Positions 55,620 through 60,115 of a stretch of DNA of 64,000 bases are shown here, one piece after another. Source of the stretch: Edaphobacter lichenicola (GTDB lineage: Bacteria; Acidobacteriota; Terriglobia; Terriglobales; Acidobacteriaceae); the NCBI RefSeq assembly GCF_014201315.1, contig NZ_JACHDY010000003.1:62001-126000 (forward strand), read 5' to 3'. A program made the translations under genes and the position numbers. The stretch's first letter is position 1; each line of letters starts with the position of its first letter. Below the pieces are notes generated by a model. The model did not search any database. It worked only from the letters and a program-made list of their open reading frames with translations, and was not told where the DNA came from.

Positions 55620-56157
55620 GGTGGGTGGCCTCGCTGGTGACTACTTCGGATGGTGATTCGGGCTCGGTTGCGTGGGGGATGGCGTCGAGGACCGGGGAGA
55701 GGGCCGAGTTACTGACGGGGAGGCCGGTGGAGGGTGGCATGAGGTTGAGGTCACCGGAGGTTGCGATGGGTAGAGGCGTGGAGGGCGGAGGCGGCATGTG
55801 TGGATGGTCTTCCACCAGCTCCTGGGTGAGTTGGGCGATGCGTTCGGGGGTTACGTCTGAGGCGGAGGCTTCGGTAAGTGCGGGCGGTGCGATGGAGTTT
55901 TCACCAGCGTCTATGGCTGGCGTTGCTATTGCTGGTGTGACGGGCGCAGCGGCCTCCATGGCGGCGATCTTTTTGCGCTGCTCTTCCTGGTCGGCGACGC
56001 GGAGTTCGTCTTCCATCTGCATGCGGAACTCGTTGGAGGCGCGGCGGAACTCGGCCATGAGCTTGCCGAGTTGACGGGCGAGCTCGGGCAGCTTCTTCGG
56101 GCCGAAGAGAAGCAGGGCGAGGAAGAAGATGACGGCGCTGTCCTGAAAGCTAGGCAT
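55612..56157 (-). CDS. tatB: TatA/TatB-type translocase subunit
   Basis: A 181-residue protein with a short N-terminal helix (about residues 7-19) followed by FGPKKLPELARQLGKLM, the TatA/B hinge and amphipathic helix, then a charged coiled region to about residue 66 and a long Pro/Ala-rich disordered tail. The length and position before tatC favour TatB, but the KKLPEL hinge also suits TatA, and in some bacteria one protein does both jobs. It is divergent from nadA, with the riboswitch region in between. Confidence 0.85.
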   Translation of the reverse strand: MPSFQDSAVIFFLALLLFGPKKLPELARQLGKLMAEFRRASNEFRMQMEDELRVADQEEQRKKIAAMEAAAPVTPAIATPAIDAGENSIAPPALTEASASDVTPERIAQLTQELVEDHPHMPPPPSTPLPIATSGDLNLMPPSTGLPVSNSALSPVLDAIPHATEPESPSEVVTSEATHHG

Positions 56158-56339
56158 AAGTCAGTCCCATGATACGGCTTACGAGTTGACGGAACAAATG
56201 GATGGAGGGCGTTGATGCTGTTGTAAGATTTCTAGTGTAGGCAGCAGGATCGTTCGAAGAAAAGCGCACCTTTTGATTACAGCGTGTGTCTAATTGTACG
56301 AACGAGTGATCTGACGGATCACAAGTGATGAAGTGGTAG

Positions 56340-56497
56340 GAGTTGCAACATCCCCGTGGGTTGGGTGGCGGTTGAGGCCGGCACAGTGAATCCACTGCAA
56401 CTCAAGCAGTGCATGCTTTCAACATCCCCGTCTCAGAGGCGAAAAGACGGTATCGGCTTAGCCGCTGCCATATGACCTTTTGAGACTGAAGGCGGAG
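56340..56497 (+). promoter_or_regulatory. NAD+-I riboswitch (nadA motif), two tandem domains
   Basis: Domain 1: outer stem GAGTTG (56340-56345) / CAACTC (56398-56403), the conserved CAACATCCCCGT (56346-56357), inner stem GTGG (56356-56359) / CCAC (56392-56395), with GGGTTGGG and CAGTGAATC at the expected places. Domain 2: CAACATCCCCGT again (56420-56431), inner stem GTCTC/GAGAC (56430-56434 and 56482-56486) and outer stem GCTTTCA (56415-56421) / TGAAGGC (56487-56493). The last stem overlaps the ribosome site GGCGGAG (56491-56497), so binding of NAD+ should block nadA translation. This motif class is described from Acidobacteriota. Confidence 0.93.
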
Positions 56498-56501
56498 TAC
56501 C

Positions 56502-57656
56502 TTGAACGGACTATTGGAGATCGCACCGGCTGCGGCCGTGGCGGAGAACGTTGCAGATTCGTGTTCCTTAGACAACTACCTTGCGCAGCCGGACCATACT
56601 ATGGATGCCCGGATTGCCGCTGCACGCGAGAAGCTCGGCACCGATGTGGTTCTGCTGGGACATCATTATCAGCGGGACGAGGTGATTCGGTTTGCCGACT
56701 TTACCGGGGACAGCTACAAGCTTTCGAAGGTGGCGGCCGAGACGGATGCGAAGTACATGCTGTTTTGCGGCGTGCACTTTATGGCGGAGACGGCAGATGT
56801 GCTGGGGCGGCCGTGGCAGCAGGTGATTCTGCCGGATCTGAATGCTGGCTGTTCGATGGCGGATATGGCGGAGATTGGGCAGGTGGAAGACTGCTGGGAT
56901 TCGCTGGAGCGCGCGGGGGTTACCGATGAAGCGTCGGGTGGGATGATTCCGCTGACCTATATGAACTCGGCTGCTGCGATCAAGGCTTTCTGCGGCGAGC
57001 GGGGTGGATTGGTGTGTACGTCTTCGAACGCTCGTGGGGCGTTTGAGTGGGCGTTTGCGCGTGCGGGGAAGATCTTGTTTTTGCCGGATCAGCACCTGGG
57101 GCGGAATACTGCGTTTGCGATGGGGATTCCGCTGACCGAGATGGTGGTCTGGGATCCTTATCAGATTAATGGTGGGGTTAGTCCTGACCGGTTGAAGGCG
57201 GCTAAGGTGATCTTGTGGAAGGGACACTGCTCGGTGCATCAGCGGTTTCTGCCGGAGCATGTTGATCGGGTGCGCCGGGAGGAGCCGGGGATGCAGGTGA
57301 TCGTGCACCCGGAGTGCCGTTGGGAGGTTTGCCAGAAGGCGGATGATGTGGGTTCGACCGAACACATTATTCAGGCGATTGAGCGCGCACTGGAGGGTTC
57401 GAGCTTTGCGGTTGGGACGGAGATTCACCTGGTGAACCGGCTGGCGAAGCGGTTTGCGCCGCTGGGCAAGCGGGTGATTACGCTCGATGACTCGGGGTGC
57501 CTGTGCACGACGATGTACCGGATCTCTCCGCAGCATCTGGCGTGGGCTCTGGAGAATCTGGTTGAGGGACGGGTTGTGAATCGCATCAAGGTGGACGATG
57601 ATGTGAAGCAGTGGGCGCGCGTTGCGCTCAACAGGATGCTGGAGATCAGGATTTGA
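56502..57656 (+). CDS. nadA: Quinolinate synthase
   Basis: [4Fe-4S] enzyme that condenses iminoaspartate with DHAP to quinolinate in NAD synthesis. A 384-residue protein with LLGHHYQRDEVI, FCGVHFMAETADVL, PDLNAGCSMADM, HPECRWEVC and DSGCLCTTMYRI; three cluster cysteines are expected among these. It starts at TTG 56502, eleven bases after GGCGGAG begins, which fits translational control by the riboswitch. nadB lies apart at 48627. The next gene overlaps the stop (TTGA). Confidence 0.96.
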   Translation: MNGLLEIAPAAAVAENVADSCSLDNYLAQPDHTMDARIAAAREKLGTDVVLLGHHYQRDEVIRFADFTGDSYKLSKVAAETDAKYMLFCGVHFMAETADVLGRPWQQVILPDLNAGCSMADMAEIGQVEDCWDSLERAGVTDEASGGMIPLTYMNSAAAIKAFCGERGGLVCTSSNARGAFEWAFARAGKILFLPDQHLGRNTAFAMGIPLTEMVVWDPYQINGGVSPDRLKAAKVILWKGHCSVHQRFLPEHVDRVRREEPGMQVIVHPECRWEVCQKADDVGSTEHIIQAIERALEGSSFAVGTEIHLVNRLAKRFAPLGKRVITLDDSGCLCTTMYRISPQHLAWALENLVEGRVVNRIKVDDDVKQWARVALNRMLEIRI

Positions 57657-58084
57657 GTAAGACGTTTACGTTGGGCGAGGCACAGACGCTGTTGCCAGTA
57701 GTAGAAGCTCTGCTGAGAAAGGCTCGGGAGGGACAGGCCCGGGCCGCGGAGTTTGAGTACGAGATGCAACAGTTGAGTCACAGGATCTTTCTGTCTGGTG
57801 GGATGCATGTGGATGTGAGCGTTGCGGCTCGACGCCGGGCGGAGCGGGATAAAGCAGTGCAGTTGGCGAAGGATACGGTGGCTGAGATCGACTCGATCGG
57901 GGTTCAGGTGAAGGATCTCGAGGAGGGACTGCTGGACTTTCCTTATCTAATGGATGGGAGAACGGTGCTGCTTTGCTGGAAGCTGGGCGAGCCGGCGATT
58001 ACGCACTGGCATACCGAGGAAGAGGGTTTTGAGGGGAGAAAGCCTCTGGATTCGAGGTTTGGCAAGACGGAGCGGCTGAACTAG
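57653..58084 (+). CDS. DUF2203-type hypothetical protein
   Basis: A 143-residue cytosolic protein starting at TTG 57653, inside the nadA stop (TTGA overlap). It begins MSKTFTLGEAQTLLPVVEAL and has a helical heptad pattern to about residue 75, then VKDLEEGLLDFPYLMDGRTVLLCWKLGEPAITHWHTEEEGF (split over two conserved blocks), which is characteristic of the DUF2203 family. Function unknown; the coupling to nadA may just reflect shared expression and would place it under the NAD riboswitch. Confidence 0.85.
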   Translation: MSKTFTLGEAQTLLPVVEALLRKAREGQARAAEFEYEMQQLSHRIFLSGGMHVDVSVAARRRAERDKAVQLAKDTVAEIDSIGVQVKDLEEGLLDFPYLMDGRTVLLCWKLGEPAITHWHTEEEGFEGRKPLDSRFGKTERLN

Positions 58085-58122
58085 ATTTGGGTGGAAGCCT
58101 GATCTTCTGTGGATAACTAAAC

Positions 58123-58153
58123 TTATCGGACGATAATCTTTATCGTTTATACT
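58123..58153 (+). promoter_or_regulatory. PerR/Fur-type operator and promoter of perR-katA
   Basis: TTATCGGACGATAA (58123-58136) is a 6-2-6 palindrome; TTTATCGTTTATAC follows (58139-58152) as a looser second repeat. The -10 TATACT (58148-58153) lies six bases before the perR ATG, so the mRNA is probably leaderless. The operator covers the -35 zone, as expected for autorepression. Confidence 0.65.
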
Positions 58154-58159
58154 TCTCTC

Positions 58160-58588
58160 ATGTTGGTGAACGAGGCCAGAACGTTTCGCAAACTCTGCCA
58201 GGAGAATGGCATTGCTGTGACTCACCAACGGCAGGTCTTGTACGAAGTTATGAAGACGATGCATGGCCATCCGAGTCCGGAAGAGGTCTATGCGCAGGTA
58301 AAGAAGAAGGTGCCAGCAATCTCGCTGGCTACCGTTTACAAAAACATACATCTGTTTGTGGAGAGCGGCGTCTTTCGCGAGGTGAGCATGCACCATGGCT
58401 CGCTGCGCGTAGAGATGAATGATGAATCGCATCACCATATGGTGTGCTCGAAGTGTAAGGCGATTACCGACATTGGAGAAAAAGAGCTTGGGCTGGTGTC
58501 GAAGCAGGACAAACTGCCCGGCGGCTTTCTGGTGGAGCGGTATGCAGTGGATGTGATTGGCATTTGTGCGAAGTGCCATCAGGCTTAG
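58160..58588 (+). CDS. perR: Fur-family regulator, PerR-like peroxide sensor
   Basis: A 142-residue metalloregulator. The winged helix (about residues 1-80) contains VTHQRQVLYEVMKTMHGHPSPEEVY and ISLATVYKNIHLF. The structural zinc site is CSKC (about 96-99) and CAKC (about 136-139). The regulatory metal site includes HHHM and, after CKAIT, an Asp where Fur has Glu; Asp at this point is the mark of PerR. The catalase gene 33 bases downstream agrees with a peroxide response. No ribosome site precedes the ATG. Confidence 0.9.
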   Translation: MLVNEARTFRKLCQENGIAVTHQRQVLYEVMKTMHGHPSPEEVYAQVKKKVPAISLATVYKNIHLFVESGVFREVSMHHGSLRVEMNDESHHHMVCSKCKAITDIGEKELGLVSKQDKLPGGFLVERYAVDVIGICAKCHQA

Positions 58589-58621
58589 GGCGATTTTCCT
58601 AACGAGTGTAAGAGGTGAACT

Positions 58622-60115
58622 ATGGCAGAAGACTTGAAGAGCAAGCAAATGACTACCGATGCCGGACGACCGGTTGGCGATAACCAGAACTCGATCACGG
58701 TGGGTAATCGTGGACCGATCGTGTTTGAGGATTATTTGCTGTTTGAGAAGATGGCGCACTTCAACCGTGAGCGTGTTCCTGAGCGTGTGGTTCATGCGAA
58801 GGGTTCGGCGGCGCATGGCACCTTTACCTGTACTAATCCGGATATGGCGAAGTACACGACCGCCAAAGTATTTGAGAAGGGCAAGAAGACGCCGACGTTT
58901 CTGCGGTTTTCGACCGTTGGCGGCGAGAAGGGTTCGGCTGATTCTGAGCGCGATCCGCGTGGGTTTGCGCTGAAGTTCTATACGGAAGAGGGGAACTGGG
59001 ACCTGGTGGGCAACAATACGCCGGTGTTCTTTATCCGCGACCCTTTGAAGTTTTCGGACTTCATTCATACGCAGAAGCGTGATCCGGAGACGAACCTGAA
59101 GTCGCCGAAGATGATGTGGGATTTCTGGTCGCTTTCGCCGGAGAGCCTGCACCAGGTGACGATTCTGTTCTCGGATCGCGGCACTCCCGATGGATATCGC
59201 CACATGAATGGGTATGGCAGCCACACGTTCTCGCTGATCAATGCGAAGAACGAGCTGTTCTATGTGAAGTACCACTTCAAGACGAAGCAGGGGATTAAGA
59301 ACTTCACTCGCGAAGAGGCCGACCACATGAAGTCTGTGGACATGGATCACTCGCAGAGCGATCTCTTCAGCGCGATTGAGAAGGGCGACTTTCCAAAGTG
59401 GACGGTGCAGATCCAGATCATGCCGGAGGCTGAGGCGGAGACGTACCACATCAATCCGTTTGACCTGACGAAGATCTGGCCTCATGCGGATTATCCGATG
59501 ATCGAGATCGGCGAGCTGGAGTTGAATCGCAACCCGAAGAATTACTTTGCTGAGGTTGAGCAGGCGGCGTTCGATCCGAAGAACGTTGCTCCGGGCATGG
59601 GTTTTTCGCCGGACAAGATGCTTCAGGGCCGATTGATCAGCTATCCGGATGCACACCGGTATCGCATCGGGGTGAACTATAACCTGCTTCCGATCAATGA
59701 GGCGAAGTGCCCCTACAGCACGTACAACCGTGATGGCAGCATGCGTTACGGAGAGAACGGTGGCAGTGGTCCGAACTACGAGCCGAACAGCTTTGGCGGA
59801 CCGACGCAGGATAAGAAGTACCTTGAGCGTCCTGTGACGTACAACACGGCGACCGTGGGACGGTATGACCATCGCGAGCATGATGGCGACTACTACACGC
59901 AGCCGGGAAACTTGTTCCGTCTGATGACACCGGATGCGCAGGAGCGGCTGTGCGGGAATATCGCGGCCGGCCTGGGGCAGGTGGAGACGCGGATTCAGGA
60001 CCTGCAGATCAATCACTTCTACAAGTGCGATCCGAAGTATGGCGAAGGCGTTGCCAAGGCTATCGGACGCAAGATTGAAGAGATTGTGAAGAAGGAAGAG
60101 CTGGTTGGTGCGTAA
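58622..60115 (+). CDS. katA: Monofunctional haem catalase
   Basis: Breaks down H2O2 to water and O2. A 497-residue small-subunit catalase: [23 protein letters not shown] has the catalytic His, [23 protein letters not shown] split over the Asn site, and [17 protein letters not shown] the proximal haem Tyr. GAGGTG precedes the ATG. It is co-transcribed with perR and should be induced by peroxide when PerR leaves the operator at 58123. A terminator follows. Confidence 0.97.

Follow-up and report, generated by a model that had tools for sequence, protein, structure and literature searches.

The RNA most closely related to the leader studied here is the NAD+-I riboswitch, which has been reported from acidobacterial nadA leaders in more than 100 sequences, each built of two domains (PMC7297122; PMC7708056; PMC10702441). 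In the published model, domain 1 binds the ADP part of NAD+, domain 2 is drawn without an internal loop and holds the ribosome site in its helix P1', and repression is described with both domains present (PMC7297122; PMC7708056; PMC10702441). The number of ligands per RNA, one or two, is disputed in print (PMC7708056; PMC10702441). Moreover, ITC data given in PMC10702441 show that NAD+ binds no better than ATP or ADP, with no discrimination against ATP, so that NAD+ is only a candidate for the ligand in the cell. Nucleotides conserved above 97% are marked in a figure of PMC7297122, Edaphobacter aggregans is named in the glossary of PMC10702441, and a paper of 2026 refers to NAD+-I a single time, in passing. 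Two other systems are close enough to be compared. The ubiB variant of the nadA motif, as presented in PMC7297122, also has two domains, and its P1' ends on the 3' side in a putative ribosome site, but its domain 2 is an uninterrupted stem-loop, whereas the present locus has nadA downstream and an 8-nt bulge in domain 2. The NAD+-II riboswitch (pnuC motif) likewise senses compounds of the NAD+ family and is tied to NAD+ metabolism genes, but it is described as a distinct RNA, found with pnuC, whose fold includes a long-range pseudoknot and which has two pockets for ligand.

An earlier note on the window, i.e. the whole stretch of 64,000 nucleotides analysed here, had proposed a two-domain NAD+-I riboswitch before nadA and suggested scoring it against the Rfam model. 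The Rfam gathering search of the 64 kb gave this result: besides tRNA, the only matches were two tandem copies of RF03013 (nadA / NAD+-I) on the plus strand, of 63.5 bits (E 1.2e-12) for domain 1, the ADP/NAD+ aptamer, at 56341-56402, and of 44.3 bits (E 5e-7) for domain 2, the expression-platform domain, at 56415-56493, both exceeding the gathering cut-off of 37.5 bits. Such tandem scores are far beyond chance. Both alignments span the model from position 1 to 62 of 62, each with the CAACAUCCCCGU core; domain 2 is the weaker match, its distal stem being partly skipped and several model pairs being non-standard. The core that the note had seen in both domains was found as CAACATCCCCGT, which occurs twice on the plus strand of the window (56346-56357 and 56420-56431) and is absent from its minus strand, and the GGTTGGG and GAATC parts of domain 1 lie at 56359-56365 and 56388-56392. 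A search of the organism's own genome returned no third RF03013 copy among its matches, only the two window domains. The family, the two-domain layout and the overlap of domain 2 with the nadA ribosome site match the published model, and this comparison is supported by the observations given below. The element is thus an ordinary, well-placed member of an already described class and not a new one; as a find, it is one further instance of a described riboswitch.

The leader comprises the 344 bases between a divergent tatA-type gene (minus strand, start 56157) and nadA (start 56502), and all its parts lie on the plus strand. In domain 1, the covariance-model alignment places the 5' strand of P1 at 56341-56347, pairing with 56396-56402 at probabilities of 0.92-0.96. 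The bulge J1, ACAUCCCC, follows at 56348-56355 and corresponds to the ACANCCCC bulge of PMC7297122. The internal loop is represented by J2, AGUG at 56385-56388, aligned to the model and including the two guanines for which published structures show contacts to J1 (PMC7708056; PMC10702441). An interdomain linker (56403-56414), for which no selected pairing was shown, separates the two matches. Domain 2 opens with the 5' strand of P1', GCUUUCA at 56415-56421, continues with the aligned bulge J1', again ACAUCCCC, at 56422-56429, and closes with the 3' strand of P1', UGAAGGC at 56487-56493, so that the outer stem GCTTTCA/TGAAGGC drawn in the earlier note was recovered both by the alignment and by the comparison of leaders. 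In sum, the locus agrees with RF03013 in that both domains exceed the gathering score and carry the ACANCCCC bulge, domain 1 has J2, the 3' side of P1' bears a ribosome site, nadA follows and the host is acidobacterial; nothing was found in the leader that falls outside the range of its relatives. A scan of 56100-58200 revealed no sigma-70-like site near the leader and no terminator-like site; its two promoter-like matches lie at 58059-58137, where 0.7 would be expected by chance in the scanned stretch.

The gene downstream, nadA (56502-57656, plus strand), starts with TTG and encodes a quinolinate synthase of 384 aa (PF02445, E 1.2e-96; TIGR00550 over cut-off), 98% identical to NadA of Edaphobacter lichenicola M8US30. 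Its ribosome site, AAGGCGGAG at 56489-56497, is divided by the end of P1': AAGGC (56489-56493) lies inside the helix and GGAG (56494-56497) outside. The genome's 16S tail reads ...CACCUCCUUUCU, with an end point set by analogy and not mapped, and the mRNA pairs with it as GAAGG-C-GG (56488-56495) at -7.9 kcal/mol, while the helix strand alone reaches -4.0 and the GGAG past the helix, a good ribosome site by itself, -5.9 kcal/mol. Therefore, the earlier claim that the domain 2 stem takes in the beginning of GGCGGAG (56491-56497) holds for the overlap, but the sequestration is partial by sequence, since GAAGG is within the helix strand and GGAG is just outside it. In the window ensemble, the P1' pairs form with a probability of about 0.8. 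Even in the ligand-free RNA, some 5.7 kcal/mol are needed to open 56489-56497 (-78.05 to -72.31), so that a large ligand effect is not obvious on thermodynamic grounds alone. When P1' is taken together with the 8 bases that follow it, the energy of the duplex with the anti-SD falls below -4 kcal/mol in all 118 leaders compared; with the bases after P1' alone this holds for 62, and with the P1' strand alone for 11. An NTG-opened frame follows the riboswitch in each of these distinct leaders (48 TTG, 43 GTG and 27 ATG, called as the first open NTG within 40 nt, so that rows such as L019, L055 and L104 are possibly miscalled), and its position 8 nt past the helix in 65 of the 118 supports the TTG start at 56502 that the earlier note had chosen.

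The 118 distinct leaders comprise 78 from a NadA search, 39 from RF03013 matches and that of the window. The NadA search gave 80 nadA loci, 78 of which were parsed as tandem; L087 came without upstream sequence. Leader L123 was excluded, both of its domains being present with cores 141 nt apart, just over the limit (53 to 106 nt in the parsed leaders), and its domain 1 carries a long extra distal stem. The comparison showed that none of the 118 leaders has lost any of the seven pairs of P1'. The 5' strand reads GCUUUC, and with its last base GCUUUCA, in every one, although the core was searched as CAACANCYCC, which makes the conservation of the core, including the last two bases of this strand, a matter of construction and leaves GCUUU free. 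The 3' strand, searched as CTGA, two G/A and then GC (or close variants), a pattern that every pair of cores passed, is GAAGGC in 107 leaders, GAAAGC in nine and GAGAGC in two, so that only a G/A exchange opposite U occurs. Two-sided covariation in P1' was not found among the 118 leaders, both strands being nearly fixed, so that the support for this helix comes from its pairing and from the one-sided G/A exchanges. In contrast to P1', P1 and P1a of domain 1 and P1a' of domain 2 show changes on both sides that preserve pairing, as at pair 4 of domain 1 P1, with 52 C-G, 42 U-A and 17 U-G among 112 leaders (six rows with an unanchored 3' strand were dropped from the domain 1 counts, L076, L079, L081, L084, L091 and L092), and the outermost counted pair of this helix forms in only 66 of the 112. 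The mean P1' pair probability given by RNAfold exceeds 0.5 in only 70 of the 118 leaders and 0.9 in 43, with a median of 0.68 and values of about 0.001 in several.

The distance from the domain 2 core to the end of P1' is 74 nt in the window and 31 to 109 nt (median 55) in the set; beside P1a', the window has CCUUUUGAGAC, found once in the set, and CCUUGUGAGAC is found in seven leaders. At the variable position of the bulge, U stands in 114 of the 118 second domains but in only 76 of the 118 first domains. Five leaders (L115, L121, L125, L128 and L130) have GGAUGGUU, GGGUGGUU or GGGUAGUU past the domain 1 core and then a quite different internal loop, and leaders with such a divergent loop are possible variants of ligand preference.

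In the host family, RF03013 was found in 190 of 299 genomes. In a sample of 396 genomes of the phylum, 38 have a match at E<=0.001 and 36 a match over the cut-off, all 36 in the host family; searches over 40 genomes ran with stricter filters, by which weak matches are lost. The two matches outside the family (G404 and G545, 27.7 bits) do not reach the cut-off and run antisense within other coding frames; they look like chance and were rejected. No second domain lacking a first was encountered, either among these out-of-family matches or in the three single-match family genomes inspected, which were those for which a position was given (G101, G122, G153, G184 and G195 were left out). In these three, the second domain is present at 33.6 bits, below the cut-off (L138, G007), begins and then loses its 3' part at two N bases (L139, G096), or is cut by the end of the sequence (L140, G145). 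In one family genome (G086), RF03013 matches four times, with at least two contigs involved, possibly through redundancy of the assembly.

We consider that the best explanation for this locus, with a probability of about 0.93, is a NAD+-I riboswitch in which ligand binding to domain 1 promotes the folding of domain 2 and lowers the translation of nadA and of the DUF2203 gene that follows it. By homology with the published relatives, domain 1 would bind the ADP part of NAD+. The occupied domain would then help domain 2 to fold, with tertiary docking between them as the most likely means, and P1', which holds the AAGGC of the ribosome site, would lower the translation of nadA; here the helix and its overlap come from the sequence and the repression from printed work on relatives. 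Through translational coupling, the translation of DUF2203 would probably be lowered as well. The view that the whole element is a chance resemblance without function could appeal to its fold energy, whose z is just -0.88 (56335-56530) to -2.18 (56340-56510), and folding energy is thus weak evidence taken alone. However, two matches with the E-values given above stand in tandem directly 5' of nadA, and the arrangement is preserved in 118 distinct leaders with covariation in P1 and P1a of domain 1 and P1a' of domain 2; the covariance-model scores and this conservation already refute chance, whose probability we regard as negligible.

The comparison bears on a question raised in print, namely by what route the binding of ligand to domain 1 acts on the ribosome site in domain 2. 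Strand exchange would be one answer: in the ligand-free RNA, a strand of domain 1 or of the linker would pair with the 5' strand of P1' and free the ribosome site, and the ligand would remove this competitor. Among the folds of the window that leave the SD open, the one of lowest energy does tie up the 5' strand of P1' in a hairpin of the linker, in which AAGCA (56404-56408) pairs with UGCUU (56414-56418). In some leaders domain 1 ends in GGAGCC, and there this strand can pair with GCUUUC. Nevertheless, across 99 distinct pairs of domain 1 end and linker (four rows, L076, L081, L091 and L092, dropped and repeats merged), real linkers perform no better than shuffled ones, with a mean ensemble energy of -4.12 against -4.22 and an engagement of the 5' strand of P1' of 0.50 against 0.56. 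Nor does the leader contain stronger complements of this strand than its shuffles do; at -5.33 against -5.94, they are if anything the weaker ones. More generally, in 99 representatives of the 118 leaders, no conserved competitor of P1' or of the SD was detected in the leader, the domain 2 loop or early nadA beyond what dinucleotide shuffles give. We therefore judge strand exchange to be very improbable, less so than chance resemblance and more so than the model of PMC7708056, in which NAD+ at millimolar levels would occupy domain 2 as well and close P1' directly. That model, which we hold to be unlikely, draws on the NAD+ contained in the published crystal structure of domain 2 (PMC7708056) and on the conservation of the bulge J1' in domain 2 as in domain 1, which the search pattern mostly fixes. 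Yet the J2 pattern CAGYGNA appears in only 2 of 118 second domains, while the slightly looser AGYGNA appears in 82 of 118 first domains and is absent from 36, and in PMC10702441 the full-length RNA is reported to bind a single NAD+, with no binding detected for domain 2 by itself.

As the search turned up no competitor, the best account of how the signal would pass is the tertiary docking proposed in PMC10702441, although weak or lineage-specific competitors may exist. A more specific form of docking is suggested by the seven pairs of P1' and its GCUUUCA being kept in 118 of 118 leaders while the helices of domain 1 drift and no competitor was found: P1' may be read by its sequence, beyond pairing, in a tertiary contact with ligand-bound domain 1, so that NAD+ occupancy would be relayed by docking and not by strand exchange. 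We put this forward tentatively, as a proposal somewhat more apt to fail than to hold. In any case, the comparative data argue against a switch of secondary structure and point to P1' as the most constrained helix to mutate.

Two additional helices were considered and rejected. In the minimum-energy fold of the window, GUGC of the linker pairs with GUAC of the start region to form a further helix, P0'; in 44 leaders with linkers of 9-14 nt its match of 8.33 is no better than the 8.18 of permuted and the 8.20 of shuffled linkers, the observed value being reached by 111 and 165 of 500, respectively. The other candidate, pairing the end of domain 1 (CACUGC, 56393-56398) with the linker (GCAGUG, 56406-56411), has a match of 13.8 in the 44 leaders against 8.96 (sd 0.31) for shuffled linkers, the top of 500 shuffles being 10.05, and GCAGTG is present in 21 of the 44 linkers. 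However, 357 of 500 swaps of linkers between species reach the observed value; as swapping does not lower the match, there is no covariation, and the helix, whose pair probabilities are below 0.005 in the window ensemble, was not accepted as a working part.

The gene next to nadA, a DUF2203 gene (57653-58084, plus strand; PF09969, E 1.1e-38), has a TTG start that overlaps the nadA TGA (57654-57656), and from this overlap of start and stop a co-control of DUF2203 by the riboswitch through translational coupling may be proposed. A DUF2203 homologue lies downstream of nadA on the same strand in 71 of 80 relatives (in fetched DNA of at most ~2 kb), starting no more than 60 nt from the nadA stop in 46 of the 71 and with a stop/start overlap like that of the window in 26. 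Among the nine relatives without it, the sequence past nadA ended after 47 bases in L111 and after 492 in L124. In a sample of 60 genomes of the phylum, DUF2203 was found in 31 and nadA in 54. According to a reading of the two lists, the 22 genomes outside the family with both genes have them on different contigs in 21 cases and ~2 Mb apart in one, while inside the family four of five sampled genomes have them close together and the fifth (G008) lacks a match to DUF2203. The association with nadA may point to a function of DUF2203 near NAD+ synthesis; a literature search on this domain yielded just a Leptospira proteome. Right after DUF2203, at 58160-60115, the window carries two genes, the first for a Fur-family (PerR-like) regulator and the next for a catalase.
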